From Rufibacter tibetensis (GTDB lineage Bacteria; Bacteroidota; Bacteroidia; Cytophagales; Hymenobacteraceae): a DNA stretch of 64,000 bases. Shown here one piece after another: positions 2,813-63,244 of this stretch. The notes beneath the pieces were generated by a model. It had not been told where the DNA came from. It saw only the letters and a list, made by a program, of their open reading frames with translations, and searched no databases. The DNA lies in the NCBI RefSeq assembly GCF_001310085.1, contig NZ_CP012643.1, positions 3,269,501-3,333,500 on the forward strand. Direction: 5' to 3'. Each line of letters starts with the position of its first letter. The stretch's first letter is position 1. The position numbers and the translations under genes were made by a program.

Positions 2813-2853
2813 AACAACGGCACCGTCTCTACAGGCGGTGCCGTTGTTGTTTT
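2813..2853 (+). terminator. Rho-independent terminator after the 2183 lipoprotein
   Basis: A 13-bp perfect stem (AACAACGGCACCG, 2813-2825, with its complement at 2836-2848) is followed by a short T run. Confidence 0.9.
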
Positions 2854-2883
2854 AAAGCCATTTTAGAAAAAGAGGCCCTAAAA
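2851..2883. repeat. Copy of the 3'-end palindromic element (degraded)
   Basis: Left half TTTAAAGCCATTTT and right half GAGGCCCTAAAA fit the dispersed family described in the findings. It sits between the convergent ends of the 2183 and 2890 genes. Confidence 0.55.
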
Positions 2884-2889
2884 GGAAGG

Positions 2890-3075
2890 TTAGTCATCGT
2901 TCCGGTGGAGGTAATATAAGACGTACCCAAAAATGGTAATGGCTACCCTTATGGCCCACCCAATGGAGCGGCCCCAGTTATCTACCCATAAAAGGAGAAA
3001 GTGGTTTGCGCCAAAAGAAGCGACCAGCAGCGAAACCAAGCCAACCAGAAAGATGAGTAATCCTAAAAATTTCAT
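2890..3075 (-). CDS. Small two-helix membrane protein
   Basis: A 61-residue protein from the ATG at 3075 (MKFLGLLIFLVGLVSLL). A longer reading from an ATG at 3156 adds 27 residues without family character, so the inner start is preferred. Two hydrophobic segments (about 3-22 and 40-57) are separated by a tryptophan-containing loop (LLWVDNWGRSIGW). The C-terminus is the short polar tail YLHRNDD. Small bitopic proteins of this sort are frequent in Bacteroidota and mostly hypothetical. It is flanked by a degraded palindromic element on its 3' side and a perfect one on its 5' side. Function unknown. Confidence 0.6.
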   Translation of the reverse strand: MKFLGLLIFLVGLVSLLVASFGANHFLLLWVDNWGRSIGWAIRVAITIFGYVLYYLHRNDD

Positions 3076-3188
3076 AGGCAAGAGCGGTGTAGAGTGAATG
3101 CCGAAGATGAATATAAGAAAGATGTGCCTCACTCCTGAATTCCATACTGCGTTCACCTAAAATTTTGAATGCATGACATAAAAGGAAA

Positions 3189-3237
3189 GGGCTCTGTTTA
3201 GAGGCTGTTTATACAAAACAGCCTCTAAACAGAGCCC
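3189..3237. terminator. 22-bp perfect hairpin, full copy of the 3'-end palindromic element
   Basis: GGGCTCTGTTTAGAGGCTGT begins the left arm (3189-3210), which pairs perfectly over 22 bp with 3216-3237 around a 5-base loop. It sits 35 bases beyond the stop of the minus-strand 3272 gene. It can serve as its terminator and is also one of the two longest perfect copies of the dispersed element. Confidence 0.85.
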
Positions 3238-3271
3238 TCAGTATTTGAATGCTTATCCTTAAATGTATTTG

Positions 3272-3658
3272 CTAGTTGTTATACTCTTGCGGAACTCCGC
3301 CGGTGCCGGCTTGCGACGGGATGCCCAGTTTGCGTTCGCGTTGCTGTTGGTATTGCTGGAACTGCGTAATGGAAAGTACGCCTTTCAAAGACTCCAGACG
3401 AGTAGCGCTAATCAGGTCCATGGTAGCTTTCAACTGGCGCGGATCGCTTTTGTGGTCTTTCTTCGCCTTCTCCAACTGCTGGATGCTGGTCAGGTTAATG
3501 GCTTTCACCTTGGCGGCCTGGGCTGCATTCAGCTTCAGGTGCTGCGTCATGGTGGTGGTCATGTTCTGGGCACGGGTCTCAGGCGTAACCGCTCCGGTTT
3601 GGGCTTGGCTGGCGAGCGTGGTAAATACAAAAGCCAACAAGAAAATAATCCTCTTCAT
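3272..3658 (-). CDS. Small secreted helical protein
   Basis: A 128-residue protein with a clear signal peptide (MKRIIFLLAFVFTTLASQAQ, cleavage after AQA/Q). The mature part is almost all helix, with the sequence LKLNAAQAAKVKAINL and a later LKGVLSITQFQQYQQQRE. This layout, with 'thresholds' such as L-T-x-x-Q, resembles the short periplasmic Spy/DUF4890-like proteins of Bacteroidota, but similarity is only at the level of pattern. It is transcribed alone on the minus strand, with the 3189 hairpin downstream and a 256-base gap before the divergent tex gene. A periplasmic stress or chaperone-like role is possible; I cannot support more. Confidence 0.7.
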   Translation of the reverse strand: MKRIIFLLAFVFTTLASQAQTGAVTPETRAQNMTTTMTQHLKLNAAQAAKVKAINLTSIQQLEKAKKDHKSDPRQLKATMDLISATRLESLKGVLSITQFQQYQQQRERKLGIPSQAGTGGVPQEYNN

Positions 3659-3914
3659 ATTCGTTTAGGTGTTAATGCTTCAGGAAATAGGGAAGCCAGC
3701 ATTGGTTCCCATACGCCGAAAACAAGGCCAATAGTTCCGGTCCCTGAGTGGCAAAGATACAAATACCGGGCCAGCTTCAACCTAACATCAGCTGCTAAAA
3801 CCGTAGGTTTCGGGTGCAGGGTTTCCGCTAATTTCGCCTTATCTTTGAAATCCATAGTCTGCGGTTACAACGCAGCAAGAAAGTAACAGAGTCTTTTCAG
3901 AACGATTATTTAGC

Positions 3915-8200: not shown

Positions 8201-8232
8201 AAAAGGCGAGTGGTTTGCACTGGCCTTTTTTG
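8201..8232 (+). terminator. Terminator after the 6617 gene
   Basis: AAAAGGCGAGTG pairs with CACTGGCCTTTT (one G/G mismatch) around a 5-base loop, followed by a T run. Confidence 0.8.
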
Positions 8233-8289
8233 TTTTGGTGCTTTTTAGCAAAAGAATGGTCTGAAGCAGAATCATCGCAGAAAGTCGCA

Positions 8290-9212: not shown

Positions 9213-9644
9213 ATGGAAGAACCTGAACCATACTTACACCTGGAAACCGACCGGTTGCACCATTCTCTGGTGCTGCACTGGAATGGCTTTGTGCCTAGTG
9301 AAGTATACCGCGACGGGTTAATGGAAGCTATTCAGGACTCTAGGAAAGAAGGCATCCAGAGCTGGGTCATGAACATGAAACACATGAAGGTGATTCGGCA
9401 GGCCGATCAGGAATGGACCCTTTCCACGTGGTTTCCGCAGTTCCAGTTGCTGGGCGTGAAACGGTTAGCCTTTGTGGTCTCAGATGATATTTTCAACCAG
9501 ATGGCGGTGAGTAGCATGATTGCTACCATAAGGCCCAGGTTCCACGCTGAGTTGGAGTACTTCCAGGAGCTGGACTCTGCCGTGCGGTGGGCCCAGGAAA
9601 ATAAAGGCAGCCTTGGCGATTTACGTCTGTTTTCCGTAAAATAG
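9213..9644 (+). CDS. STAS/SpoIIAA-like domain protein
   Basis: A 143-residue protein from the ATG at 9213 ([33 protein letters not shown] opens it in part). An ATG at 9153 would add 20 residues with no family character and is less likely. The order beta-strand ([10 protein letters not shown]), helix ([13 protein letters not shown]), strand ([13 protein letters not shown]), helix and strand ([13 protein letters not shown]) fits the single-domain SpoIIAA-like/STAS-like proteins common in Bacteroidota. Their partner is generally unknown. It precedes two small genes at 23- and 10-base spacing and may share a transcript with them. Confidence 0.6.
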
Positions 9645-9667
9645 GCCTAAATCACATTTTTCTCTGC

Positions 9668-9859: not shown

Positions 9860-9869
9860 CCCAATCGCC

Positions 9870-10130
9870 ATGCCCTTAAGCCCCAAGCTCGAAGCCAAAC
9901 TAAGCAAACCGTTCGCCCCAGACAGCCGCATAGATGATGTGTTCGCAGGCAATGACATCACATTCATCACGGATGGGCAGGGCCACGCCATTACCTTATT
10001 CATTGGCAAGCGCAAGCCAGACGGCAGCATCAACGGTGAACGCTTTGTGCGGCGCCTCAAGTTTGAGGCCGATGGGGTGACCCTGAAAGCCAGCCACTGG
10101 GAAAACAAAGGCAAAGTGACCCGGTTCTGA
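9870..10130 (+). CDS. Small protein of unknown function
   Basis: An 86-residue protein from the ATG at 9870 (MPLSPKLEAKLSKPFAPDSR). An alternative ATG at 9813 would overlap the previous gene and is rejected. It is rich in beta-type hydrophobic/charged alternation (DDVFAGNDITFITDG, HAITLFIGKRKPDGS, FVRRLKFEADGVTLKASHWE) and resembles small secreted-type hypothetical proteins, but it has no signal peptide. Third gene of the 9213 group. A degraded palindromic element starts immediately after its stop. Confidence 0.6.
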   Translation: MPLSPKLEAKLSKPFAPDSRIDDVFAGNDITFITDGQGHAITLFIGKRKPDGSINGERFVRRLKFEADGVTLKASHWENKGKVTRF

Positions 10131-10164
10131 TTTGAGCCATTTTTTTTGCAAAAGCAACCCTAAA
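10131..10164. repeat. Copy of the 3'-end palindromic element (degraded)
   Basis: TTTGAGCCATTTTTTTTGCA begins immediately after the stop of the 9870 gene, and the right half is CAACCCTAAA. Family described in the findings. Confidence 0.6.
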
Positions 10165-10208
10165 CAGAAAATAAAATTTAGGGGCCTTTCACCAACTCCC
10201 AAAAGTAG

Positions 10209-11825: not shown

Positions 11826-11863
11826 AGCTTGTTTATGTTTTTAATAGAAAACTGAGGAGTAGG

Positions 11864-11895
11864 TTTAATGGCTGTTTTCTGGAAAAGGTAAAAAG
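11864..11895. repeat. Copy of the 3'-end palindromic element (degraded)
   Basis: TTTAATGGCTGTTTTCTGGA followed by AAAGGTAAAAA fits the left half well and the right half poorly. It lies in the convergent gap between the bestrophin-like and SPW genes. Confidence 0.45.
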
Positions 11896-11938
11896 CGAGC
11901 GGCTCCTTTGTGTCATCACAAAGGAGCCGCTCGCTTTT
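11891..11938. terminator. Bidirectional terminator, 22-bp perfect stem
   Basis: AAAAGCGAGCGGCTCCTTTG begins the left arm (11891-11912), which pairs perfectly with 11917-11938 around TCAT. A-rich and T-rich ends let it serve both convergent genes. Confidence 0.92.
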
Positions 11939-12337: not shown

Positions 12338-12824
12338 AAAAACGTAAACGTATCTTTTTATACGCACCTGAAGGAGGTTGGCTGATAGAGTTTATACTGA
12401 TTTTCAAGTGTTTATAAGGAATAAATACTTACCTGAGGCATTTTGTATGCGGAATGGTGTCCTTTTAAAACCAAATATGGAATGAAGCCACCAAAGCAGA
12501 TATCGTATTGTGCCACTTATGGGTACTTGAGTCTACCTATTTTAAAAATATTCGTATAGGCTGCAGGCTTAGGCTCTTACCTGCCACTTTAGGGTGGTGC
12601 TGCCTCCGATCTCTTACAATTTCTTTTTGTGCTTGTTTTTTCATAAAAGCTACAAAACCAAATAGATACAAAAACTTTCTATATATTAGATTTGGTATGT
12701 AGTATTAATGCAGTAAGTTATAGGAAAAATACTGAATTGAGGTTGGAAAGAAATTAGATAAATTAACCATAAAGTTTACGGGTATACTAAGCGTACCTAT
12801 TCATCAAGTTAAAACACTATACAT
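12338..12824. other. Divergent intergenic region between SPW gene and inositol operon
   Basis: Nearly 490 bases without a credible gene. A short 64-residue frame at 12508-12702 has no family character. The second half is AT-rich. TAGATTTG at 12687-12694 matches the Bacteroidota -7 consensus TAnnTTTG, about 130 bases before the operon start, but no convincing -33 element was seen. Confidence 0.4.
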
Positions 12825-15825: not shown

Positions 15826-15877
15826 AATAAAGCGATTAGGGCCTGTTTTCCAGAAAACAGGCCCTAATCGCTTTATT
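15826..15877. terminator. Bidirectional 25-bp terminator containing a full palindromic element
   Basis: A perfect 25-bp stem with a 2-base loop runs from 15826 to 15877. Its core is ATTAGGGCCTGTTTTC and the complement, a full copy of the dispersed 3'-end element with extra stem at its foot. It sits between convergent genes; the outer base overlaps the last base of the 15877 stop. Confidence 0.93.
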
Positions 15878-16869
15878 TATTCTCCTAAGTGAACGTGCTC
15901 CTGAAACAGCTCCGTCATGGGTTCACCGTCTCGCTTTGGAATAGGGAAACCGAGCAATTCAGCAATGGTAGCGGCCACATCTGCCTGAGAGCGGGGCTGA
16001 GTAACTGTTTTTCCGCGCTTTAGATCAGGCCCCAGCGCTAAAAGGCTGATGTGCCGGCAGCCCTCACAATTATCGCCGTGGCTCTCAAAGTTCTTGCCTG
16101 TATGTCGGCCGTGGTCGTTGGTGATGAGGAGGGTGGTGTTGTTCTGGTACTGCGGTTGTTTTTGGAGCCATTTCCACAAATCGGCCACTAAACGATCGCT
16201 TTGCCTGATGGCTTTGAGGTAGCCGTTCCAGTTACCGGCATGGGCTTCAGAATCTGGTTCGCGCAGGTTAATGAGCATCAGTTTTGGTTGGTGCCGGCTT
16301 AATACCTGTTTGGCTACTCTAATGGTAGTAGTGTCATCACGGTAGCCAGTGCCTAAGCCCTTGATCCCGCTGTTGACCGATGGCGCAAAGGCAGCGGCGG
16401 AGTCTGAACTGTATGTGCGGGCCAGAACCTCAAGTTTGTCTTTACTGGTAACTACCCAGGCATCCGTAGCAGGGGCGCCCGTATGCTGGCGGTAATAATG
16501 AAAGACAGACGGAAATCTGGGCAGCTCATCGCCATTGTTCTTTATTTTTTGGTGATACCCAGTGGTGAGCGCCACATGCCCGGGGTTGGTCAAGGTAACG
16601 CCTTGGTTGTAAAACTGCGGATTGAATACACCTTGGGGCGCTAAATAACGGGCCATGTTGGGAATATTAGAGAACGTGGAGTCCCCCCAAGAGTCTGAGT
16701 ACCGCACTCCGTCAATCACCACCAGAATCACGTGCTGGGTAGCGTACGTTTGAGAGGGTTTCTGCAGGGGAGTTGACCCTGCCCTGCTGGAGGGGGAAGA
16801 AGACTGACAGGCGCCAAAAAGGCAAATAAGAAAAAAAGTAAAGAGGCGACTTAAAAACCGATAAATCAT
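15877..16869 (-). CDS. Phosphodiesterase-like lipoprotein (alkaline phosphatase superfamily)
   Basis: A 330-residue protein with a lipobox ending LFGAC near residue 20. The mature part has the metal-binding pattern of type I phosphodiesterases/nucleotide pyrophosphatases: VILVVIDGVRYSDSW, NQGVTLTNPGHVALTTGYH (candidate nucleophile Thr), INLREPDSEAHAGNW (Asp/His ligands) and LLITNDHGRHTGKNFESHGD. These enzymes hydrolyse phosphate mono- or diesters outside the cytoplasm. It follows the NamZ-like and NagZ-like genes on the same strand at 26-base spacing. It may belong to that cell-wall scavenging group, for example removing phosphate from released muropeptide sugars or teichoic acid; that link is inference. 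Confidence 0.8.
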   Translation of the reverse strand: MIYRFLSRLFTFFLICLFGACQSSSPSSRAGSTPLQKPSQTYATQHVILVVIDGVRYSDSWGDSTFSNIPNMARYLAPQGVFNPQFYNQGVTLTNPGHVALTTGYHQKIKNNGDELPRFPSVFHYYRQHTGAPATDAWVVTSKDKLEVLARTYSSDSAAAFAPSVNSGIKGLGTGYRDDTTTIRVAKQVLSRHQPKLMLINLREPDSEAHAGNWNGYLKAIRQSDRLVADLWKWLQKQPQYQNNTTLLITNDHGRHTGKNFESHGDNCEGCRHISLLALGPDLKRGKTVTQPRSQADVAATIAELLGFPIPKRDGEPMTELFQEHVHLGE

Positions 16870-18176: not shown

Positions 18177-18228
18177 CTTCCCAAGATAGCAAAAGAAGCG
18201 CAGGTTTTCCAGAAGAAGGTGCGGGCTG

Positions 18229-18261
18229 TTTAGGCCGTATTTTAGAAAACCAGACCTAAAA
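18229..18261. repeat. Copy of the 3'-end palindromic element (degraded)
   Basis: TTTAGGCCGTATTTTAGAAA followed by ACCAGACCTAAAA. It lies 12 bases beyond the stop of the NagZ-like gene and ahead of the NamZ-like gene. Confidence 0.55.
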
Positions 18262-18272
18262 CAAACGCAGGA

Positions 18273-20330: not shown

Positions 20331-20350
20331 AGAGGTAAATTGCTTTGAGC

Positions 20351-21139
20351 TTACTTTTTGAAAATCTCCCCGAAAAACTGCTTCATAGCTTCCCAGGACC
20401 TGCGGTCAGCCGCTGCATTGTAAGCAGCTCCTTTTTTGATGTCTGACCCAGCTTCAGGATTGGTGAAAGAATGGACAGCGTTGCTGTAGGCAATGAATTG
20501 GTAATCCACGTTAGCATCGTTCATTTCTTTGAAGAAAGCATCTACCTCGGCTTTGGGTACGAAGGGATCAATGGCGCCGTGGGCCACTAACACTTTGGCT
20601 TTGATGTTCTTGGCATCGGCTGGAGAGGGAGTAGCCAAGCCTCCGTGGAAACTTACCACACCGGCTACATCGGCGCCGCTCCGGGCCAATTCCAGCACGG
20701 TGGTGCCGCCAAAGCAGTACCCAATGGCTGCCACTCTGGAGGCATCTACGTTGGGTTGTTTTTTGACCTGGGCTAAGGCCGCATTGACGCGCTGGCGTAG
20801 CAAAGGCACGTTGTTTTTGTATTTGCCGGCTTCAGCGGCAGATTCCTGTGGGGTTTTAGGTCTCACACCTTTGCCGTAGATATCAGCTGCAAAGGCTACG
20901 TAGCCCATTTTGGCCAACTGTTCACACCGTTTCCGGGTGTAATCACTAATGCCGTTCCACTCGTGCACCACCAGTACTGCCGGAAGTTTGCCTTTCTTAG
21001 AGGCGTCATAAGCAAGGTAACCCTCTAAGGTGGTGGTTCCTTCTTTATATTCTACCACCTGGGTTTTGATTTGTTGGGCCTGAGCCGATACTGCCATAAA
21101 GGTTAACAGGAAAGCAAAAGCAAAAGAAAGCTTATTCAT
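20351..21139 (-). CDS. Secreted dienelactone hydrolase-family protein
   Basis: A 262-residue alpha/beta hydrolase with a signal peptide (MNKLSFAFAFLLTFMAVSAQAQ). The catalytic triad is Cys142 in IGYCFGGTTVLE, Asp191 in AHGAIDPFVP and His223 in NAVHSFT, with Glu60 in VVHEWNGI as in dienelactone hydrolase. The C-x-G-G nucleophile elbow points to the DLH family, which opens lactones or esters; many secreted Bacteroidota members have unknown substrates. It is alone between terminators. Periplasmic location is expected from the signal peptide. Confidence 0.88.
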   Translation of the reverse strand: MNKLSFAFAFLLTFMAVSAQAQQIKTQVVEYKEGTTTLEGYLAYDASKKGKLPAVLVVHEWNGISDYTRKRCEQLAKMGYVAFAADIYGKGVRPKTPQESAAEAGKYKNNVPLLRQRVNAALAQVKKQPNVDASRVAAIGYCFGGTTVLELARSGADVAGVVSFHGGLATPSPADAKNIKAKVLVAHGAIDPFVPKAEVDAFFKEMNDANVDYQFIAYSNAVHSFTNPEAGSDIKKGAAYNAAADRRSWEAMKQFFGEIFKK

Positions 21140-22179: not shown

Positions 22180-22358
22180 AAGAACTTAAGAGTCAAAAGA
22201 GTAGAAGATGTTTTTTGAAGGCTATTCCTCCTCTTTTAGTTTCATGATGCTCAGTATTTACTTATAAAATTTGCCTCCTTCTTAGTTGGGTAGCTACAAG
22301 GTGTAACTTCTTTTATCTTAAGGGAATAGCATTTAAGAAAGGCGGGGGAGAAAGCAGA

Positions 22359-22392
22359 TTTTAGAGTCTGTTTTCAGGAAAGGGGCATAAAA
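22359..22392. repeat. Copy of the 3'-end palindromic element (degraded)
   Basis: TTTTAGAGTCTGTTTTCAGG with a poor right half GGGGCATAAAA. It lies downstream of the DUF2059 gene and abuts its terminator. Confidence 0.6.
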
Positions 22393-22431
22393 CAGGCGGG
22401 CTCCTCTTTTAGTGAGGAGCCCGCCTGTTTT
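22389..22431. terminator. Terminator after the DUF2059 gene
   Basis: A perfect 18-bp stem (AAAACAGGCGGGCTCCTC, 22389-22406, with 22414-22431) around 7 bases. Confidence 0.92.
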
Positions 22432-22915: not shown

Positions 22916-23082
22916 TTTAGAGGGTTGATTAGGCTCCTAATTACGTAAGGGGCTGCAGAATAACCAGCATAGCCCAGTATTTATTTTGGAGAGCCATAGA
23001 GGTAGTAAACCACGGGAAACTACTTCCGTACCACAGGGTTGAAAGCATTTTCCCTACAACCATCCCTTTTGCACCTAGTTTT

Positions 23083-23640
23083 ATGAAAATAACCAAAAAA
23101 GAGACTGCCTACCAGGGCTATTACCGGCTACAGGTTTTTACGGTAGAAGACAAAGGAAAAGAATTTGAACGCGAGGTCTTCCAGACCGGTAGGGCGGCGG
23201 CGGCGCTGGTCTATGACACCAAGAAGCAGAAGTTCATTTTGGCTAAGCAGTTCAGGCCAGCCGTGGAGCAGGAGATGGTAGAAGCAGTGGCCGGCATGCT
23301 GGACAGCGCTGACGAAAAGCCAGAGGCTGCCATCCGGCGCGAAATAGAAGAGGAGATCGGCTATGCCGTAGATCACCTGCAACTCTTGTATGAATACTTC
23401 CCGTCACCGGGTGCTTTCTCAGAGCAAATGTTCTTGTTTTACGCCGAAGTAAGTGAGAAAACGGGTGAAGGTGGGGGCAAAGACGATGAAAACGAAGACA
23501 TTACCACGCTTGAACTTACCCCGGAACAATTGGTGAAACAGCCTATTACAGACGGGAAAACCATTCTGGCCATTGAGTGGGCTAAAGCCAATCTGCTGCC
23601 AAAGCTGAAAGAACAGAAGAACGGCAAGAAGTCTTCCTGA
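23083..23640 (+). CDS. Nudix hydrolase, ADP-ribose pyrophosphatase type
   Basis: A 185-residue enzyme. The Nudix box is AGMLDSADEKPEAAIRREIE then EEIGY, with the conserved E, RE, EE and G in register, but with one extra residue between the first Gly and the first Glu. The upstream QTGRAAAALVYDTKKQKFILAKQFRPAV and downstream PSPGAFSEQMFLFYAEV are typical of ADP-ribose/NudF-type members, which cleave ADP-ribose and related nucleoside diphosphate compounds to control their levels. It is monocistronic, cytoplasmic, with no signal peptide. Confidence 0.88.
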   Translation: MKITKKETAYQGYYRLQVFTVEDKGKEFEREVFQTGRAAAALVYDTKKQKFILAKQFRPAVEQEMVEAVAGMLDSADEKPEAAIRREIEEEIGYAVDHLQLLYEYFPSPGAFSEQMFLFYAEVSEKTGEGGGKDDENEDITTLELTPEQLVKQPITDGKTILAIEWAKANLLPKLKEQKNGKKSS

Positions 23641-38129: not shown

Positions 38130-38134
38130 CGTTT

Positions 38135-41393: not shown

Positions 41394-41428
41394 GCTTCTT
41401 TTTAGAAATCAAGCTTTAAAGGGTCAGG

Positions 41429-43669: not shown

Positions 43670-44878
43670 ATGATCACTACCGAACAAAAAACACTTTCAG
43701 ACCGCATCACCTCCCTTGCCGAATCACAAACCATCGCCATGGCGAAAAAGGCGCGTGAGTTGGCAGCCAAAGGAGTGGACGTGATAAACCTTTCCTTCGG
43801 GGAACCAGATTTCCAGACGCCGCAGTACATCAAAGATGCCGCTAAAAAGGCAATTGATGACGGCTATACTTTTTATACTCCGGTTGCCGGTTACCCAGAT
43901 CTGCGCAAGGCGATTGTAGAGAAACTTCGCCGCGACAACGGCCTGGAGTATGGTCCTGAGAACATTGTGGTTTCTACCGGAGCCAAGCAATCCATTGCCA
44001 ATGCGGTAATGTGCCTGGTGAACCCTGGCGATGAGGTCATCATCATCTCCCCGTATTGGGTGAGCTACGAAGAGGTAGTTAAACTGGCCGAGGGAATTCC
44101 GGTGCCGGTGAAAGGTCCTCTGGAGAACGACTTCAAAATTACGGCGCAGCAGTTAGAAGAGGCGATTACGTCCAACACTAAACTGGTGATGTATTCTTCG
44201 CCCTGCAACCCAACGGGTTCTGTGTTCACGAAGGACGAACTCGCCGCTTTTGCCGCTATTTTGGAAAAACACCCGCAAATCCACGTCATCGCTGACGAGA
44301 TTTACGAGTACATCAACTTCACAGGCGAGCATTACAGCTTGGCCCGTTTTGAGTCCATCAAAGACCGTGTGATTACGGTGAACGGTTTCTCTAAAGGCTA
44401 TGCCATGACTGGCTGGCGCGTGGGCTACATTGCGGCCCACAAAGACATCGCCGATGCCTGCGACAAAATGCAGAGCCAGATCACCAGCGGTACCTGCTCC
44501 ATTGCCCAGAAAGCTGCTCAAGCTGCTTTGGAAGGCGGAAGAGAATCAGCTGAGGAAATGAGCGCTTCTTACCTGCGTCGCCGCGATTTAGTGTTGGGTT
44601 TGATGAATGACATACCAGGCATCAAAACCTACGTGCCACAGGGTGCTTTCTATATCTTCCCAGATGTGAGCGCTTTCTTCGGGAAGTCTGCTGGTGACAT
44701 CAAAATCGAAAACTCAAACGACTTAGCCATGTACCTGCTGAATGACGCTCACGTGTCATTGGTAGAAGGTGGAGCCTTTGGTGCACCGCAGTGTATCCGG
44801 TTCTCCTTCGCTGCGTCTGATGCCAAATTGATTGAGGCGTTGGAGCGTATTAAGGCTAGTTTGGCGAAACTGAGCTAA
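43670..44878 (+). CDS. Aspartate aminotransferase (class I, type Ib)
   Basis: A 402-residue PLP enzyme. The pyridoxal lysine is K242 in NGFSKGYAMTGWRVGY. Other landmarks are INLSFGEPDFQTP at the N-terminus, GYPDLRKAIVEKL, the SPCNPTG motif (177-183), VIADEIYEYI (Asp209 region) and the C-terminal CIRFSFAASD, which binds the carboxylate. It matches AspAT type Ib, which exchanges the amino group between aspartate and 2-oxoglutarate, and in some members acts on prephenate. It is a single gene with a long terminator downstream. Confidence 0.9.
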   Translation: MITTEQKTLSDRITSLAESQTIAMAKKARELAAKGVDVINLSFGEPDFQTPQYIKDAAKKAIDDGYTFYTPVAGYPDLRKAIVEKLRRDNGLEYGPENIVVSTGAKQSIANAVMCLVNPGDEVIIISPYWVSYEEVVKLAEGIPVPVKGPLENDFKITAQQLEEAITSNTKLVMYSSPCNPTGSVFTKDELAAFAAILEKHPQIHVIADEIYEYINFTGEHYSLARFESIKDRVITVNGFSKGYAMTGWRVGYIAAHKDIADACDKMQSQITSGTCSIAQKAAQAALEGGRESAEEMSASYLRRRDLVLGLMNDIPGIKTYVPQGAFYIFPDVSAFFGKSAGDIKIENSNDLAMYLLNDAHVSLVEGGAFGAPQCIRFSFAASDAKLIEALERIKASLAKLS

Positions 44879-44914
44879 AACTGAGTATCACATTTTCTTA
44901 GTACTTTTGCCTTC

Positions 44915-46015: not shown

Positions 46016-46022
46016 GCTTCTG

Positions 46023-46054
46023 TTTAGCGCCGATTTTAAAAAGCAGGCTCTAAA
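46023..46054. repeat. Copy of the 3'-end palindromic element (degraded)
   Basis: TTTAGCGCCGATTTTAAAAA then GCAGGCTCTAAA, 8 bases after the stop of the kinase gene. Confidence 0.6.
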
Positions 46055-46088
46055 GCAGCTCTTTCTCGATTCTTATTTAAAGCTATAA

Positions 46089-46126
46089 AAAATGGCTTCC
46101 TGCATACGTATGCAGGAGGCCGTTTT
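46089..46126. terminator. Hairpin between the convergent kinase and hemE genes
   Basis: AAAATGGCTTCCTGCATA (46089-46106) pairs with 46109-46126 over 18 positions with two G-U wobbles and a two-base loop. Confidence 0.85.
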
Positions 46127-46156
46127 AGTTTACTTTTCTGAAAAGAGGCTCGAAAA
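46123..46156. repeat. Copy of the 3'-end palindromic element (degraded)
   Basis: TTTTAGTTTACTTTTCTGAA then AAGAGGCTCGAAAA, ending two bases beyond the hemE stop. Confidence 0.5.
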
Positions 46157-46158
46157 CC

Positions 46159-47190: not shown

Positions 47191-47287
47191 GCCGCAAAGA
47201 TAAAGCAAAAAAATATGAGTCCTGGGTTCTGAGTTCAGAGTTCTGAACTGGAATTTATGGGGAGCAGAGAAGATAAGCCCGAAATGA

Positions 47288-47319
47288 TTTCGGGTTCGTT
47301 TTTGCAAATCGGCTTCAAA
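47288..47319. repeat. Copy of the 3'-end palindromic element (degraded)
   Basis: Read on the minus strand, TTTGAAGCCGATTTGCAAAA then ACGAACCCGAAA, 17 bases beyond the stop of the MarC-like gene. Confidence 0.55.
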
Positions 47320-47336
47320 GCGAGTGAACGGCTTAT

Positions 47337-47969: not shown

Positions 47970-48030
47970 TAATACAGAAAATCAATAATATACCCGCACG
48001 GGTGCTTTGGGGGAGAGAGCACCGAAAGCT

Positions 48031-48063
48031 TTTAAGCTTTATTTTAAAAGACGGCTCCAAAAA
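48031..48063. repeat. Copy of the 3'-end palindromic element (degraded), overlapping a stop codon
   Basis: TTTAAGCTTTATTTTAAAAG then ACGGCTCCAAAAA. It contains the stop codon of the minus-strand gene at 48039. Confidence 0.45.
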
Positions 48064-48506
48064 CCAGAGGGGGCAGGTTTTGGCTGGCGTGAATAGGTGC
48101 GTTTTAGTTGCACCAGTTGTAAGCGCTGGATGGCTTTGATCAGGTACTGGTAGGCTTGGGCATCGCGGGCCAATACACCGCTCACACCCGGTTTCCAGAG
48201 GCTCAGGATTTCTTCTCCTTCAGAGGCAGGGGTAAGGATAAAAATATGGGTGCGCTCCAGTTGGGAAATCAACCCTTTGAGGACTCTAATATCGGGATTG
48301 TACCCCAGGCTGGCCTTACCTCCCAAGATGATGATCTCCCTGGTGGAGTTGCGGGCAGACCCAAATTTGCTTGCAAATACCTCATAGCTCACGGCTTGGA
48401 CCTCAACCCGTTGGGTATATAAATTTTGCTTATCTAAAGCCTGAACTAATGATGCAGCCAGTGTTTGGTCGTCTTCCAACAGCAGCAGCCGATAGGATGT
48501 ATTCAT
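48039..48506 (-). CDS. Degenerate CheY-like receiver protein
   Basis: A 155-residue single-domain protein. The acidic patch at the start is intact (LLLLEDDQTLAASLVQAL, Glu9-Asp10-Asp11), and the later FILTPAS carries the conserved Thr. The strand where the phosphoacceptor Asp should lie (REIIILGGKAS) has Gly instead, and the Lys position near VLARDAQAY is also lost. It therefore looks like a pseudo-receiver that cannot be phosphorylated at the usual site but keeps the fold. No histidine kinase or output domain is adjacent. The C-terminal tail is basic. A protein-binding regulatory role is inference. Confidence 0.65.
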   Translation of the reverse strand: MNTSYRLLLLEDDQTLAASLVQALDKQNLYTQRVEVQAVSYEVFASKFGSARNSTREIIILGGKASLGYNPDIRVLKGLISQLERTHIFILTPASEGEEILSLWKPGVSGVLARDAQAYQYLIKAIQRLQLVQLKRTYSRQPKPAPSGFWSRLLK

Positions 48507-48809: not shown

Positions 48810-49937
48810 ATGAATGCAATTAAATTAGGCATATTGGGTGGCGGACAGCTTGGTCGCATGTTGCTGCAGGCAGGCCTTGATTTCAATCTCTACACACTGG
48901 TCCTGGACCCCGATGAACATGCTCCGTGCCGTCACCTCTGCGAAGAGTTTGTGCATGGTGACTTTAAAGACTATGACACCGTTTACGCCTTCGGGAAACG
49001 GTGTACGCACGTGACCATAGAAATTGAGCACGTAAACGTAGATGCCCTTTTTGCGCTAGAGAAAGATGGAATTCAGGTGTACCCAAAGCCCGCTTCTCTC
49101 CAGACTATCCAGGACAAAGGCCTGCAAAAGGAGTTTTTTCAAAAGAATAACATTCCTACTTCAGATTTCAGGTTGCTGCAAGATGCTGCCGAGTTGGAGG
49201 CGAACGTAGATTTTCTGCCTGCCTTCCAGAAACTTCGCCGCGGCGGGTATGATGGCAACGGCGTAACCCGACTTTCTTCTGCGAATGATTTCCATAAAGC
49301 ATTTCAAGCGCCTACGGTATTGGAAAAGTTGGTGGAGTTTGAGACTGAGATATCGGTTATCTGTGCCAGAAACGTGCAGGGTGAGGTGAAAGCGTTCCCG
49401 GTGGTGGAGCAAGTCATGCACCCAGAACACAACCTGGTAGATTACCTGTTGGCACCAGCTCAGATTGCCTACAAACTGCAACGCATGGCCATTGAAATTG
49501 CTACCCATGTAACCACTGGTCTGGACATTGTGGGGTTGTTGGCGGTAGAGATGTTTGTCACCCGTGACGGACAGATTTTGGTAAATGAGGTAGCGCCACG
49601 TCCGCATAACAGTGGCCATCATACCATGAAAGCAAACGCTACTTCTCAATTTGAGCAGCATTTACGTGCTATCCTGGGCTTGCCTTTAGGCGATGCCGAG
49701 CCGCATTGCCCAGCCGTGCTGGTAAACCTTCTGGGGGAGGCAGGCCATTCTGGTGAGGCGGTGTATGAAGGTTTGGAGACTACGCTTCAGGAGCCCGGCG
49801 TGCACATCCATTTGTACGGAAAGAAGTTTACGCGTCCTTTTCGGAAAATGGGCCATTTAACCGTACTGGCTCCTACCATTGAAGAAGTAAAACAAAAAGC
49901 AGATACCATCAAAAACCGCTTAAAAATCATTGCATGA
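48810..49937 (+). CDS. purK: 5-(carboxyamino)imidazole ribonucleotide synthase (PurK)
   Basis: A 375-residue ATP-grasp enzyme. The N-terminal [20 protein letters not shown] is the family opening, followed by [28 protein letters not shown] (the ATP-binding loop), [15 protein letters not shown] and [30 protein letters not shown], the metal/substrate block. It converts AIR, bicarbonate and ATP to N5-CAIR in purine synthesis. Its stop overlaps the start of purE (ATGA at 49934-49937), so translation is coupled with the partner enzyme. Confidence 0.96.
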
Positions 49938-50463: not shown

Positions 50464-50997
50464 TTGCTTTCCCTACAACCCATAGTAGAAACTGCCACGC
50501 CCGAGTTCTCTCAGGCGTGGCAGTTGTATGAAGAGGCTTTCCCACCAGAAGAGCAACGTTCCTTTGCGCAACAGCAAAGTCTGTTAGCCAATGCCGCTTA
50601 TCAGTTTTTCATTATCAGGCACCAGGAAGAGTTTGCCGGATTGCTAGGTGTTTGGCAACTGCCGGAAAGTACATTTCTGGAGCATTTTGCGGTGGTAACT
50701 ACGTTGCGAGGGAAAGGAATAGGAGCAGGTGCGCTGCAGTTACTGGTTAAAGAAAAAAGGCAACCTATAGTCCTGGAAGTGGAGCCGCCTTTGACAGAGA
50801 TTGCCAAACGCCGGATCAGTTTTTATGAGCGGCTTGGTTTCCATTTAAATGATTTCGAATACCGGCAACCGCCTTATGCTGCTGCCAAACCATGGGTGAA
50901 GTTACAGCTCATGACGTACCCCGAAAAGGTAGTGACCCCAGATTTAGAAATGATTAAAGCTCAATTGTATAAGCAGGTGTATGGGCAAGCAGTTTAG
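50464..50997 (+). CDS. GNAT-family N-acetyltransferase
   Basis: A 177-residue protein opening with a TTG at 50464 (MLSLQPIVETATPEFSQAWQ), two bases after the purE stop; no in-frame ATG lies closer to the domain start. The GNAT acetyl-CoA site is FAVVTTLRGKGIGAGALQLL, and IVLEVEPPLTE with AKRRISFYERLGFHL is the C-terminal block. It transfers an acetyl group to an amine; the substrate is unknown. Its position at the end of the purK-purE transcript is suggestive but not evidence of a role in purine synthesis. The stop overlaps a palindromic element. Confidence 0.82.
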   Translation: MLSLQPIVETATPEFSQAWQLYEEAFPPEEQRSFAQQQSLLANAAYQFFIIRHQEEFAGLLGVWQLPESTFLEHFAVVTTLRGKGIGAGALQLLVKEKRQPIVLEVEPPLTEIAKRRISFYERLGFHLNDFEYRQPPYAAAKPWVKLQLMTYPEKVVTPDLEMIKAQLYKQVYGQAV

Positions 50998-51026
50998 GGG
51001 CTGTTTTTGTAAAGAAAGCTTAAAAA
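50993..51026. repeat. Copy of the 3'-end palindromic element (degraded), overlapping a stop codon
   Basis: TTTAGGGGCTGTTTTTGTAA then AGAAAGCTTAAAAA. Its TTTAG contributes the stop codon of the GNAT gene. Confidence 0.5.
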
Positions 51027-51057
51027 GCTTACAGCCTAGCTTTCAGAAATTAAAAGT

Positions 51058-53464: not shown

Positions 53465-53520
53465 ATCTAAGCCCGTTTTCGGAGCAGTTTTTGAAAACAG
53501 CTCCGAAAACGGGCTTAGAT
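53465..53520. terminator. Long bidirectional hairpin containing a palindromic element
   Basis: ATCTAAGCCCGTTTTCGGAG and 6 further bases (53465-53490) pair with 53495-53520 with one A/A mismatch. It lies between convergent genes and includes a core of the dispersed family (TTTTCGGAGCAGTTTT). Confidence 0.9.
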
Positions 53521-55454: not shown

Positions 55455-55502
55455 ATTGGATTGAACATTCTTTTAAGAAAGCAAACAATAAACGGAGATG
55501 TT

Positions 55503-56123: not shown

Positions 56124-56258
56124 TTCCGTACTCCTTTAGCTCCAGAAGAAGCAAAGGTACGAAGCTTTGGAGGCATTGACGTCTGGTTGAAGTCTGGAAA
56201 GAGAAAAAGAATAGGTTTTGTAAAAACAGGCTGAAAAGAGAAATTCAATACTAAAGAA

Positions 56259-59070: not shown

Positions 59071-59266
59071 GGCCATAATTCTGCCGTTTTGTGACACAAT
59101 GTCATTTTAACAAAAACAATAAGTAAGGCTATACGAAACAATGGGCAGGCAGTGTCAGGTGCGAATGCGCTTTTGACTTGTTTTTGGAAAGCGAGCCTGA
59201 ATAGAAGGGAGTTTTGACAGTATTCCTGGATGTTTATTAGTAGATGAAGAAAGGAAGAAGTCCTGT

Positions 59267-59299
59267 TTTGAAGCACTTTTCAAGAAAACAGACCCCAAA
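59267..59299. repeat. Copy of the 3'-end palindromic element (degraded)
   Basis: TTTGAAGCACTTTTCAAGAA then AACAGACCCCAAA, 25 bases beyond the stop of the pseudouridine synthase gene. Confidence 0.55.
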
Positions 59300-59324
59300 T
59301 GGCCTTCTTTCTTTGTCACCAACT

Positions 59325-59930: not shown

Positions 59931-59995
59931 AACGGATTAGATAAGGTGGACGGGCTAAAAGTACGGATTTAGTATTGATTGTACGTTGAAAAGGG

Positions 59996-60027
59996 TTTAA
60001 AGCCCATTTTCTACAAACTTCCGAAGA
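59996..60027. repeat. Copy of the 3'-end palindromic element (degraded), overlapping a stop codon
   Basis: TTTAAAGCCCATTTTCTACA then AACTTCCGAAG. It spans the stop of the minus-strand gene at 60011; weakest copy called. Confidence 0.35.
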
Positions 60028-62098
60028 AACGGCGCAAAGCCCATTCTGAACAGGCTAGCCCCAGCAGCAGGAAATAAAACCAGGATTGTTCCAGCAGGTC
60101 TTTCTCTTCCTCGTGGCTACGCAGGATAGTCTTGAAGTTTGCCTTAACTAAATCCTGTTCTAGTTGGGCCAATTGAGCCGGATAATACAGCTTGGTTTCG
60201 GACCGTTCCGCAATTTGGCTCAGCAGGCTATGGTCGGCCACAGCTAAAAGTGATTCCAGGTTTTGTTCTTGTACTACAAACTCTCCGTTGTCTGTATAGT
60301 TCTGGTTTTCTACCCTCGCGGAGGCGGCGTAGCGGTAAAAACCTGCCGGTAAGCTGCCCAGTTTCAGTCCTTCGCCGCCTTGCTCGTGCCGGAATGTATG
60401 ACGGGTTTGCTTTCCGCCCTCGTGGGTAAGGGTGAGCGAAACCGTCTGTCCGAAGATTTCTTCCTGTACCGCGTTGAACACATCAGCCTGCAGGTTTACT
60501 CCTTCAGAGGTTTCAAACTCATCTTTGACCGGGTACACGTGCAGGCGTTTCTGGTTTCTTCGGTTGGCCAGCAGCTGCACCACGTGCGTCATGAGCTCAT
60601 CGTAAATCTGAGAGGTTCCGTGGTCTACGGCCTCAGTGAGCCGCCACTGCCAGCTGCCGTCGGTGAGGAGCACTGCAGAAGGTGTAGGGGCCGAGGGTTT
60701 GTAAACCAAAAGTGGTTTGGTAGTTCTAACGGTACCTACCTGTTGATTCAGGATCACCTCAGCGGCCGGGGCAATTCGCCAATCTCCGTAAGTGACCGGT
60801 GTAGGGGGCCAGCTTCTAATACGGGTTTGGGCAGTAGGTTCCGTAGAGAAACGTCTGAATGCGTTGTTCAGCAGTGGCTGCACCTCGTCAAATTGCGGTG
60901 AAGGGCGGCTTAACTGCACCCCAGCCTGTACAGCGTTGAAGGCATTGAAATCGGTCTGGGCGCCCAGAATATAGAAGGAGGGAACTTTGGTGCTTTTCAA
61001 TCGGCGGAGCCAATCTGTTCCTACGCCACTCACGTTAGGAATCTGGTGCAGCACTGCCGCATCATAAGGTGTTTTGAAGGAAGGATTTTGGAAAGGTCCC
61101 AACACTACTTCCACGTCCAGCAGCGGATTAGAAAGCAAGGCGCTTCTTAAAGCTTTGATGTCTGGGTGCGGAGCCGCCGCAGCCACCAGAATCTTGAGTT
61201 TGCCTTTGATGACTTCAAGGTACGCGTGCCGGCGGTTGTTCAGGGCCGTGAATTCTCCGTTTACTGGTTGAATTCTTACCTCATAGTGCTTTTTGCCAGC
61301 TTGCGCGGCAGTTACCTGAAAGGTGGTTTGCAAGGCACCGCTTCTGGGTAAAGAAACCGTTTTCCGCTGAACGGTTTTGCCGTTTTCCTGCAGCAGCACA
61401 TTGACGTTGGTTCCATTGAAGCCGTTATGCCGTACCCGCGCCACAATAGGGAAGGAGGTACCGGTATAGTTGATTTTGTTGTACTGCACTTCCTCCAGCA
61501 CTACATCGCGCTTGGCTACTGTATCACCTAAAGCTAAAGGGTACACCGGGGCGGCATACATCTGGAAAGTAGGCGTGGGACCCTGGTTATGGATACCGTC
61601 TGAAATTAGCACGGTAGCGGCCAGGTTCTGGTCTCTGTAGGCGTTTTCCCCTTTTTCAAGAAGCGCATGTAAGTTAGTAACGGGTGCCTGGAGCGGAGTG
61701 GAGGCCAGTGAAGTGGCCGCAGAGTCGCCCTCCTGGAAAGAGGCATTTACCACCTCCAATCCCCTTTCCCGGAGCCGGTCTGCCAGTGCATCTACTCCTT
61801 GCAAGGTTCGGGTTAGGGCTTCTTTTTGGGTGAACAGACCTATGGATTGAGAGTTGTCTAAGGCTAGTACCACTTTAGGTTTTATTTCTTCCTGCCTGAT
61901 GCGGCGGGTGTAAGGTTCCAAAAGTAGAAAACACACCAATGCAACCAGCAAAGCCCGCAAAGAAGCCAAAAACCACCGCAAGCCTGTAGGCCAGGGACCA
62001 CCCCTGCGGTACATAAACCAGGAAACGGCAATTCCTGCCGCCAGGCAAAGCAATACATACCAAGGAGAATACGCGGTGTGAATTTGAAAGGATTGCAC
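60011..62098 (-). CDS. Membrane-anchored vWA-like protein
   Basis: A 695-residue protein with an N-terminal pair of membrane helices (about 13-30 and 44-62). A vWA-type domain opens at KVVLALDNSQSIGLF with a DxSxS MIDAS motif at D81, S83 and S85, continuing to ATVLISDGIHNQGPTP. The rest is extracellular beta-type sequence with an alpha/beta glutamine-amidotransferase-like stretch near 300-460, and it ends in a final membrane helix (QSWFYFLLLGLACSEWALRRFFG). This layout resembles Bacteroidota BatA-type or large vWA membrane proteins, which bind metal-dependent ligands. No neighbour supports a pathway. Confidence 0.75.
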   Translation of the reverse strand: MQSFQIHTAYSPWYVLLCLAAGIAVSWFMYRRGGPWPTGLRWFLASLRALLVALVCFLLLEPYTRRIRQEEIKPKVVLALDNSQSIGLFTQKEALTRTLQGVDALADRLRERGLEVVNASFQEGDSAATSLASTPLQAPVTNLHALLEKGENAYRDQNLAATVLISDGIHNQGPTPTFQMYAAPVYPLALGDTVAKRDVVLEEVQYNKINYTGTSFPIVARVRHNGFNGTNVNVLLQENGKTVQRKTVSLPRSGALQTTFQVTAAQAGKKHYEVRIQPVNGEFTALNNRRHAYLEVIKGKLKILVAAAAPHPDIKALRSALLSNPLLDVEVVLGPFQNPSFKTPYDAAVLHQIPNVSGVGTDWLRRLKSTKVPSFYILGAQTDFNAFNAVQAGVQLSRPSPQFDEVQPLLNNAFRRFSTEPTAQTRIRSWPPTPVTYGDWRIAPAAEVILNQQVGTVRTTKPLLVYKPSAPTPSAVLLTDGSWQWRLTEAVDHGTSQIYDELMTHVVQLLANRRNQKRLHVYPVKDEFETSEGVNLQADVFNAVQEEIFGQTVSLTLTHEGGKQTRHTFRHEQGGEGLKLGSLPAGFYRYAASARVENQNYTDNGEFVVQEQNLESLLAVADHSLLSQIAERSETKLYYPAQLAQLEQDLVKANFKTILRSHEEEKDLLEQSWFYFLLLGLACSEWALRRFFGSL

Positions 62099-62227
62099 AA
62101 ACGGTGAGTTAGGTCACAGGATCAAGTAGCAAGATAAAAGAAGTCTGCCATATATGAGCGAATAGTCCCTGGTTTACCTCTTTATTTCTTAAACTGAACG
62201 CCTACCCCTGTTATTGCCTTTCTGCGG

Positions 62228-62261
62228 TTTTAAGCAAGTTTTTGGAAAAGGACCCTAAAAA
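62228..62261. repeat. Copy of the 3'-end palindromic element (degraded)
   Basis: TTTTAAGCAAGTTTTTGGAA then AAGGACCCTAAAAA, about 90 bases beyond the fabG stop, before the hairpin below. Confidence 0.5.
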
Positions 62262-62284
62262 GGGATTGCTTTTACTATAAAAGA

Positions 62285-62320
62285 GAAAGCCGATGTCAGT
62301 TTTAACCAACATCGGCTTTC
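62285..62320. terminator. Terminator after fabG
   Basis: GAAAGCCGATGT pairs with ACATCGGCTTTC around 12 bases, just beyond the fabG stop. Confidence 0.9.
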
Positions 62321-62348
62321 TATTAAATTATGTTCTAAAACTTACTAC

Positions 62349-63095
62349 TTAGGTAAGCATACCGCCGTCTACCTGCAGGGTTTGGCCGGTTACGTAAGAA
62401 GATAAGTCTGAGGCCAGGAATACGGCTGCGTTGGCTACATCTTCCGGAGCGCCTCCGCGTTTCAACGGAATTGCTTTTCTCCACTCAGCTACAACAGCAG
62501 CGTCTAGTTCGTCGGTCATATCGGTTTCAATGAAGCCCGGCGCGATGGCGTTGCTGCGGATGTTTCTGGAGCCTAATTCCAAAGCCACTGATTTGGTAAA
62601 CCCGATGATACCTGATTTAGAAGCGGCGTAGTTAGCTTGTCCGGCGTTGCCTTTGATACCAACCACACTAGTCATATTGATGATAGAACCGCTTTTTGCG
62701 CGCATCATGTGTTTGGTGGCAGCCTTGGTTAAATTGAAAACCGATTTCAGGTTAGTGTTGATGACGGCGTCCCACTGGTCTTCGCTCATGCGCATCAAAA
62801 GACCGTCTTTGGTGATACCAGCGTTGTTCACCAGTACATCCAGTTTACCGAAGTCTTTCACCACGGCTTCCACTAATTGCTCGGCCTGGGTAAAGTCAGA
62901 GGCATCTGAACGGTAGCCTTTGGCTTGAATTCCGTACTCGGCTAATTCCTGCTCCAGAGCCTGACCTTTCTCCACGCTGGAGAGGTAGGTGAAGGCCACA
63001 TTGGCGCCCATTTCAGCATATTTCTTCGCGATGGCCCGGCCAATACCCTTGGAGGCGCCGGTTACTAAGGCAATTTTTCCTTCCAGTAATTTCAT
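62349..63095 (-). CDS. fabG: 3-oxoacyl-[acyl-carrier-protein] reductase
   Basis: A 248-residue classical SDR. The NADPH motif TGASKGIGRAIAKKYA is at the N-terminus, with VLVNNAGITKDGLLMRMSEDQWDAVI in parts, IINMTSVVGIKGNAGQANYAASKSGIIGF giving the Ser, Tyr and Lys of the active site, and the last NAIAPGFIETDMT. The pattern and length are those of FabG, which reduces 3-oxoacyl-ACP in fatty acid synthesis. It stands alone here, away from other fab genes, and its transcript is terminated by two hairpins. Confidence 0.92.
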   Translation of the reverse strand: MKLLEGKIALVTGASKGIGRAIAKKYAEMGANVAFTYLSSVEKGQALEQELAEYGIQAKGYRSDASDFTQAEQLVEAVVKDFGKLDVLVNNAGITKDGLLMRMSEDQWDAVINTNLKSVFNLTKAATKHMMRAKSGSIINMTSVVGIKGNAGQANYAASKSGIIGFTKSVALELGSRNIRSNAIAPGFIETDMTDELDAAVVAEWRKAIPLKRGGAPEDVANAAVFLASDLSSYVTGQTLQVDGGMLT

Positions 63096-63211
63096 AATGC
63101 TTGTTTAAAGGGCCATCTGCTACAGAAGATGCTCCCCGGTTCTCAGTCCCAAATATACAAATCTGGGACGGGAGCCAAAGAAACAAGCCTAGGTTTTCAA
63201 AAACAACCTGC

Positions 63212-63244
63212 TTTTGACCTGTTTTCAGGCAAGGGTGGCTAAAA
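63212..63244. repeat. Copy of the 3'-end palindromic element (degraded)
   Basis: TTTTGACCTGTTTTCAGGCA then AGGGTGGCTAAAA, 13 bases beyond the stop of the 63257 gene. Confidence 0.5.

Follow-up and report, generated by a model that had tools for sequence, protein, structure and literature searches.

A dispersed 38-bp palindromic element of Rufibacter, a putative DNA-binding site at the ends of transcription units

Why should one short palindrome recur, again and again, just behind the genes of a bacterial chromosome? The question is raised by a stretch of 64,000 nucleotides of Rufibacter tibetensis (NZ_CP012643.1, positions 3,269,501 to 3,333,500; hereafter the window), in which an initial annotation made from the sequence alone listed 19 copies of a unit with two inverted halves. 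It offered two readings, i.e. a mobile element that targets 3' ends, resembling repetitive extragenic palindromic (REP) sequences, or a regulatory motif of 3' untranslated regions (UTRs) under selection. We confirm that the dispersed palindromic element is real and larger than earlier reported. Its role is likely to lie at the DNA level and at 3' ends, and we see an even chance that it is a putative chromosomal DNA-binding site at the ends of transcription units, acting as a roadblock or insulator, and not a decayed hairpin or mobile repeat.

A scan of the window with the previously given consensus finds 19 places that score at least 22, compared with 0-2 in four first-order Markov shuffles. 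With a position weight matrix (PWM) refined for two inverted half-sites, 464 kb of sequence (20 spaced 20-kb stretches of the genome plus the window) contain 280 matches of at least 14 bits compared with 16 in one second-order Markov shuffle, 236 compared with 3 at 18 bits or more, and 206 compared with 2 at 20 bits or more. As both consensus and PWM were derived from real sequence, a fixed pattern set against its own backwards reading is the cleaner test of chance, and TTT-N9-TTT-N4-AAA-N9-AAA occurs 531 times in the whole genome vs 19 for the reversed pattern. The window holds 38 copies of at least 18 bits rather than 19 (Table 1), and all 19 places listed earlier are recovered among them, the lowest at 19.5 bits. 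Extrapolation from samples at the same cut gives about 2,600 copies on the main contig of the R. tibetensis genome and about 1,400 to 2,000 on the main contigs of three other species, as counted with a PWM that was trained on R. tibetensis sequence; copies in divergent dialects, e.g. in genome G012, may escape it. No Rfam covariance model matches the window at the gathering threshold, and we found no description of this element in the open-licence literature.

The element is a 38-bp dyad, roughly TGTTTT-N5-TGTTTT-N4-AAAACA-N5-AAAACA, and its cross-species consensus approximates (C/T)GTTT(T/A)nGGnCTGTTTT(C/T)-NN-(G/A)AAAACAGnCCn(T/A)AAAC(G/A). The centres of the four (C/T)GTTT(T/A)-type boxes (TGTTTT/AAAACA-type) are 11, 10, and 11 bp apart, those of the T/A runs alone 11, 8, and 11 bp. 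The central spacer separating the inner C/G positions, earlier given as three nucleotides, mostly measures 2 or 1 (159 and 65 of 230 copies, respectively, in the R. tibetensis genome), and it is 2 in 178 of the 187 copies from five species with a sharper motif. In four genomes, isolated half-sites show no excess at 8, 10, or 14 bits; with a threshold of 12 bits, there are 93 vs 73 in the R. tibetensis genome and no excess in the other three. As such, the unit seems to be the full dyad. Its core has an information content of 26 bits in the R. tibetensis genome, 29 bits in G004 with G014, and 43 to 53 bits in the five sharper species. Over 329 co-directional copies, the half nearer to the stop codon and the half farther from it have similar scores (15.2 and 14.9 bits, respectively).

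Among the searched genomes, the element is restricted to the genus Rufibacter. The fixed pattern occurs 531 to 1,710 times in all 16 genomes of the genus (backwards 6 to 21) and 0 to 133 times in 43 other genomes (backwards 1 to 100), where the largest ratios, 9 to 1 and 4 to 1, come with low counts, and two genomes of one other genus show about 2 to 1 (38 to 18, 39 to 17). A stricter form is found 186 to 1,561 times in the 16 genus genomes, 0 to 3 times in 188 other genomes of the family (backwards 0 to 2), and 0 to 4 times in 394 genomes of the phylum, three of which are also in the family set (backwards 0 to 5). The best segment of the Tex protein encoded in the window is 92% identical to that of Rufibacter roseus, 91% to R. 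ruber, and 78% to Pontibacter. Within the genus, the consensus differs among the sampled species: for instance, it reads CGTTTAGGGGCTGTTTTT in G005, CGTTTTTGGCCTGTTTTC in G007, TGTTTTtGGcCTGTTTTt in G001, and CGTTTTcGGGCTCATTTC in G012. The G012 dialect (L184-L187) has an altered inner box, CTCATTTC in place of CTGTTTTC, and a stronger TTTC flank; the PWM may miss copies there. Separately, six genomes of another genus in the same family (G107, G109, G117, G121, G144, and G174) have a single match each to the strict pattern, and this match is a similar 36-bp sequence, GTTTACACGGCGGTTTACACAAACGTAGTAGAAAAC in G109 with variants in the other five, perhaps a conserved operator.

Position, hairpins, bend, and copies per junction were counted in eight genomes (G000, G001, G004, G005, G006, G007, G012, and G014), of which G004 and G014 are sisters and so not independent; these counts leave out the G003 and G009 stretches as well as two named Rufibacter loci. 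Genes were called with a simple caller of our own, which places stops better than starts. Among intergenic regions of 80-250 bp, a copy of at least 18 bits is present in 60 of 66 between convergent genes, 124 of 236 between co-directional genes, and 9 of 42 between divergent genes (convergent vs divergent, Fisher P ~1e-13). The strong 3'-end bias reported at the outset therefore holds in length-matched regions, and the element is neither as rare as in shuffled sequence nor spread equally over promoters and genes, the two outcomes named beforehand as contrary to it. In co-directional regions of 150-600 bp, 144 of 222 copies fall in the first four tenths, towards the upstream stop. The number per junction is also regular: 73 convergent regions of 80-300 bp include 54 with one copy, 12 with two, and 7 with none, where a Poisson distribution expects 25 with none. 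The ratio of variance to mean is 0.24 for convergent regions, a value lowered by the motif's own length, which limits crowding in short regions, vs a Poisson-like 1.02 for 61 divergent regions, and it is the same without G014.

Copies centred in a called gene number 8 of 199 in the five sharper species, 29 of 120 in G004, and 23 of 114 in G014. In the window, 12 of the 38 copies are centred inside an open reading frame (ORF) and one lies between divergent genes, so that the statement that no copy sits in a promoter region or gene body was too strong; with our own choice of ORFs, 5 of these 12 overlap the ORF's stop and 3 are on the earlier list. Overlap with a stop codon, which had also been described, is seen in 8 of the 38.

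Selection could act on the transcript, with the element serving as an intrinsic terminator or an mRNA-stabilising hairpin. A transcript signal should be directional, yet the two halves are alike, and most copies show little excess pairing. Specifically, the half-half core matches of 280 R. tibetensis copies have a spread close to that of permuted halves, and in four other species the mean half-half agreement departs from its permuted counterpart by no more than 0.03. What an RNA-level role would explain is an excess in the top classes of the same 280 copies (8 or 9 of 9 matches in 14 copies vs about 1) and a small excess of pairing in R. tibetensis at core positions 7 and 8 and three flanking bases. 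It would also explain where near-perfect hairpin cores lie. Counted after dropping copies near stretch ends or without a neighbour on both sides, these make up 30 of 136 convergent copies (10.2 expected) and 46 of 329 co-directional copies (19.0 expected), i.e. 76 of 465 at 3' ends where 29 are expected, while divergent regions have 2 of 73 (4.5 expected) and genes 1 of 110 (0.6 expected). Since the excess is confined to 3' ends, these hairpins look like terminators built on the motif.

The same can be followed at one junction. For the copy at 15833, the orthologous gene is present in 13 genus genomes, and 10 of these carry the motif no more than 400 bp downstream of it, 9 at a distance of 60 bp or less; each species has its own wording there, and the adjoining sequence differs. 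By eye, the stem is kept in several of 10 species despite changes on both sides, which is what selection on RNA would produce, and A and T runs frame it. A GC-rich stem followed by a T run, as in an intrinsic terminator, is nevertheless the property of a minority of copies and not of the class.

Terminator-like hairpins are, moreover, often separate from the motif. In co-directional regions the motif centres avoid them, with 7 centres in the 40 bp that precede the T-tail (21 expected) and 26 in the 40 bp that follow (18 expected); the corresponding convergent counts are 14 (19 expected) and 23 (18 expected). From these counts, the motif is mostly a separate site that tends to lie near terminators. 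A terminator detector applied to 600 3' ends of seven genomes (without G014) is positive at 173 when they are read in sense, at 136 in antisense, and at 25 after shuffling, and it thus finds real stems and says little on direction. Of the proposed regulatory 3'-UTR motif, selection at 3' ends is retained and the implied RNA level is not: symmetry and the absence of half-half covariation in most copies point to DNA, and we consider an RNA-level element distinctly unlikely.

At the DNA level, the sequence may be selected for its shape. The mean bend of 40 bp predicted by a wedge model is 52 to 74 degrees in the eight genomes, which is 2.2 to 3.5 times that of shuffled copies (19 to 23 degrees), and neighbouring 40-mers give 19 to 28 degrees. 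It falls when either spacing is altered by about half a turn, and the T-tract spacing is near the wedge-model optimum. Intrinsically bent DNA alone, favoured by nucleoid packing or gyrase wrapping without a dedicated protein, would account for these values, and enterobacterial REPs bind gyrase and IHF according to an excerpt of PMC1525189. By contrast, specificity of sequence is evident from the G, GG, and CTG positions and from how strictly the sharper species keep to a spacer of 2, a spacer of 2 is not the bend optimum, and restriction to one genus is unexpected for a generic physical property. Because the optimal and preferred spacers differ, the bend looks like a property of the element rather than its whole target, and we hold bending alone to be highly improbable.

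A mobile origin makes different predictions, i.e. that a REP-like element, or one resembling miniature inverted-repeat transposable elements (MITEs), targeted 3' ends and is now mostly decayed. High copy number fits, a species-specific consensus could reflect re-amplification, and REPs are described in PMC1525189 as favouring 3' ends and convergent genes. Comparison of two sister species (genes 89% identical at the median; one species pair only) shows little movement. On a 200-kb piece of G004, 79 of 120 copies lie in comparable intergenic regions, i.e. those with conserved neighbours; 72 of these are matched by a copy at the aligned position and 4 by one at another place in the region, and the remaining 3 are absent, with no clean empty site at any of the 3 in this pair. 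Target-site duplications are not convincing either: in 147 and 158 copies, boundary matches of at least 3 bp rest on 1-3 copies each among the matches listed, and the 2-bp excesses (17-18 copies) sit at or inside the motif edge. The REP tags GTAG and CGTC are found at 16 and 13 of 1258 half-site edges (seven sets), where about 34 are predicted from base composition (an estimate made for GTAG). The exception is G007, with CGTC at 7 of 122 edges vs about 3, and its consensus begins CGTT.

A REP-associated tyrosine transposase (RAYT) was also sought. The Y1 transposase family PF01797 is matched in 15 of the 16 genus genomes and in genera that lack the motif, and G007, a single contig with a sharp motif, has no PF01797 match, although a very divergent transposase could be missed. 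A Y1 transposase is therefore not sufficient for the motif and is undetected in G007. The sole Y1 transposase match of the R. tibetensis genome (L006) has motif copies on both sides, a point in favour of mobility, but these are unremarkable given the general motif density; we rejected the link.

The copies described at first as decayed are better seen as variable around a fixed frame. For copies chosen in one of the two sister species (68 + 69), identity reaches 94-97% at four T positions of each half, above the 80-82% of the flanks; it is 86-89% at the adjacent T and G positions, 78-84% at GG/CC, and 67-78% over the remaining core. Similarly, the R. tibetensis profile has five T positions per half at 89-96% and the rest at 39-72%. 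Random uniform mutation of 125 sharp copies from four species, without indels and from an assumed sharp ancestor, does not reproduce the R. tibetensis profile, so that T conservation exceeds simulated decay. Decayed hairpins were rejected on this ground and on the pairing of the halves, which in most copies are little more complementary than when permuted. Together, the length-matched enrichment, the usual single copy per convergent junction, and T-tracts conserved across species bear out the suggestion of a 3'-end motif under selection, whereas positions shared by sisters, the lack of convincing duplications and of tags, and a sharp motif in a species without a Y1 transposase match speak against the mobile one, which we judge very unlikely.

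A further argument against mobility comes from a contig with conjugation genes. On the 235-kb second contig of R. tibetensis (G000:C2, L179-L182), where L181 includes conjugation genes of the TraG and TraM types, the 80 kb that were sampled contain 1 copy, compared with about 10 per 20 kb on the chromosome; with these genes and almost no motif, the contig resembles a conjugative plasmid. In G012, the second contig (155 kb), putatively plasmid-like, has 1 copy in 20 kb, compared with 4 to 9 per 20 kb on the main contig. A 7.5-kb contig of R. tibetensis (G000:C3, L183) has 3 copies, a density that resembles the chromosome rather than the plasmid. On the chromosome itself, the 20-kb stretch L025 (G000:C1:4650001-4670000) is without a copy of 18 bits; it has 21 genes, 20 of them on one strand (caller trained on the plasmid-like contig), ten of its proteins give one match in PHROGs (esterase/lipase), and it is possibly an acquired island.

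Scarcity on foreign DNA brings in the main rival, a DNA uptake sequence (DUS). By such a mark a naturally competent Rufibacter would recognise DNA of its own kind; uptake and recombination would have multiplied it, and copies at 3' ends would be tolerated or would have been recruited into terminators. Over a thousand copies, restriction to a genus, species dialects, and scarcity on the sampled plasmid-like contigs match the DUS of Neisseriaceae as presented in an excerpt of PMC3630211, and gaps in DUS have been used for finding foreign DNA (PMC7371117, in part). Excerpts of two papers also place DUS pairs in terminators (PMC1852404) and describe, for one species, an overlapping DUS pair in dyad symmetry that is perhaps read by a dimer (PMC3630211). 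Concerted dialects and scarcity on plasmid-like contigs are better explained by uptake than by a roadblock or insulator. ComEC (PF03772) occurs in all 16 genus genomes, as the uptake model would have it, but also in 18 of the 19 others searched (34 of 35 in total), so it does not discriminate. Uptake would, however, predict single oriented units, while isolated half-sites are not in excess at most thresholds; intragenic DUS are common in the excerpted account (PMC3630211), while the five sharp-motif species have hardly any copies in called genes; and passive accumulation would not be expected to give a regular number per convergent junction. We regard uptake as unlikely on balance.

How might a chromosomal binding site work? 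Each half has two direct TGTTTT-type boxes one turn apart, which suggests that it would be contacted by a monomer with two recognition helices or by two monomers. A Rufibacter-specific protein, as a dimer of a two-headed DNA-binding protein or as a dimer of dimers, would occupy the dyad. The bound complex could act in both directions at the ends of transcription units, helping RNA polymerase to stop; alternatively, where convergent genes drive supercoils into each other, it could pin them. By completing the palindrome, some 3'-end copies, a minority, would have become true hairpin terminators. The chances of a roadblock or insulator mechanism are, in our estimate, finely balanced. A more far-reaching version is tentative and in our view rather doubtful: that the genus has evolved its own site-specific protein, which marks nearly every chromosomal transcription-unit end, with one symmetrical site per convergent junction as a bidirectional roadblock or insulator and well over a thousand sites in all, protein and sites co-evolving into species dialects.

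Several observations weigh against a protein-bound roadblock or insulator. No binding protein was found; HU/IHF, considered as the genus-specific factor, was rejected, as each of 35 genomes from within and beyond the genus has 1-2 matches. Site-by-site selection does not easily account for well over a thousand sites that move jointly into species dialects, and plasmid-like contigs go without the element though their genes must also end. The distribution has gaps and excesses: only 15 of 31 very short convergent regions (30-79 bp) have a copy, 55 of 141 divergent regions of 30-999 bp have one (sum of length bins), and 53 of 236 copies of at least 18 bits in the R. tibetensis genome are centred in a called gene. 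Intrinsic terminators are detected at 127 of 360 ends with the motif vs 46 of 240 without (odds ratio 2.3), which favours a site near terminators, but the detector is weak on direction and can count the motif's own hairpin, and by it 233 of the 360 motif-bearing ends are without a terminator; avoidance of hairpins is also weaker in convergent regions. Between sister species, the more variable core positions show no conservation beyond that of the flanks (80-82%), whose identities are inflated by a gapped alignment in which aligned columns only were counted. Finally, the predicted bend peaks at a spacer of 3-4, not at the preferred 2.

By the usual account, transcription in bacteria ends by intrinsic terminators or by Rho. 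If the binding-site reading were true, a lineage-specific dyad at most convergent junctions would mean that transcription units can be bounded, or colliding supercoils absorbed, in a further way that is marked by a factor and that can arise in a single genus and spread across its chromosome. If the element were an uptake mark instead, it would add one in Bacteroidota, where a single literature search found no paper on uptake sequences, itself weak evidence of novelty. In either case, the sharp boundary between Rufibacter and the rest of its family makes the origin of a DNA code with many sites directly testable.

Table 1. Copies of the dyad in the window, with PWM scores; the third column gives the start of those listed in the initial annotation
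Position	Strand	Listed start	PWM score (bits)	Context
762..798	.		25.5	
2848..2884	.	2851	34.1	starts in T-tail of terminator-like hairpin
3195..3231	.	3198	35.1	near-perfect hairpin, extended arms
8231..8268	.		18.9	weak copy, convergent region
9617..9654	.		33.9	absent from earlier list; overlaps stop of 9153-9644
10128..10166	.	10131	21.6	overlaps stop of 9813-10130
11862..11897	.	11864	19.5	adjoins terminator-like hairpin, convergent
12623..12659	.		25.6	divergent region
15833..15870	.	15836	36.8	perfect hairpin, convergent junction
16157..16194	.		27.5	inside ORF 15877-16869
18227..18263	.	18229	32.2	
20341..20378	.		26.9	overlaps stop of 20351-21139
22358..22394	.	22359	29.2	adjoins terminator-like hairpin
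23065..23102	.		27.9	at 5' end of ORF 23083-23640
24357..24394	.	24361	29.2	starts in T-tail of terminator-like hairpin
25254..25291	.		20.3	inside ORF 24508-25419
27958..27995	.		28.8	
32673..32710	.		23.9	
32737..32773	.		28.2	
35485..35521	.		28.9	convergent, adjoins terminator-like hairpin
38094..38131	.	38096	34.9	near-perfect hairpin
40006..40042	.		22.1	inside ORF 38135-40291
41386..41422	.		29.7	overlaps stop of 40785-41393, upstream of terminator-like hairpin
44246..44282	.		26.5	inside ORF 43670-44878
44846..44883	.		22.7	overlaps stop of 43670-44878
46020..46056	.	46023	25.6	convergent
46121..46157	.	46123	28.3	second in convergent junction of 46020 copy
47285..47322	.	47288	27.8	centre inside longest form of ORF 46159-47307
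48028..48064	.	48031	23.7	overlaps stop of 48039-48506
49825..49862	.		22.5	inside ORF 48810-49937
50991..51027	.	50993	31.3	overlaps and supplies stop of 50464-50997
53474..53510	.	53475	27.7	near-perfect hairpin, extended arms, convergent
55457..55494	.		19.6	convergent
56202..56239	.		rounds to 18.0	borderline, just under the cut, outside the 38
59168..59204	.		27.2	
59264..59301	.	59267	32.3	
59994..60031	.	59996	25.2	overlaps stop of 60011-62098
62226..62262	.	62228	32.0	about 20 bp past terminator-like hairpin
63209..63246	.	63212	22.8	

One gene of the window, at 37263-38051 on the minus strand, encodes a protein of 262 aa whose HNH_5 match falls slightly short of the cut-off. Only 4 of the 16 genus genomes have this protein (one a weak partial match), so the junction there is not traceable across the genus, and a second copy is present elsewhere in the R. 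tibetensis genome.

Set beside known systems, the Rufibacter element resembles the DUS and uptake signal sequences (USS) of Neisseriaceae and Pasteurellaceae in its thousands of copies, lineage dialects, scarcity on foreign DNA, and the formation of terminators by some copies, and it shares with the extended Haemophilus uptake signal two A/T tracts about a turn apart (PMC1852404, in excerpt). It differs in being a full 38-bp dyad that is hardly genic in sharp species and usually present once per convergent junction, and an uptake role for it is putative. Like REPs and bacterial interspersed mosaic elements (BIMEs), it is short, palindromic, extragenic, and of high copy number, and lies at 3' ends and between convergent genes. 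Unlike those that go with a RAYT, it has no tag, no RAYT match in one sharp-motif species, and no sign of mobility between sisters; its halves vary independently, and it is a T-tract dyad rather than a tagged hairpin, with a stem-loop kept in a minority only. Rho-independent terminators share its place at 3' ends, and a minority of copies are hairpins with extended arms, but most copies are without excess pairing and many lie beside a separate terminator-like hairpin. Protein-bound DNA sites that stop a polymerase are known in Reb1/TTF-I roadblock terminators and replication Ter sites, which are few or confined to special loci. Unlike these, the Rufibacter site, whose protein is so far postulated, is symmetrical and repeated over a whole bacterial chromosome.

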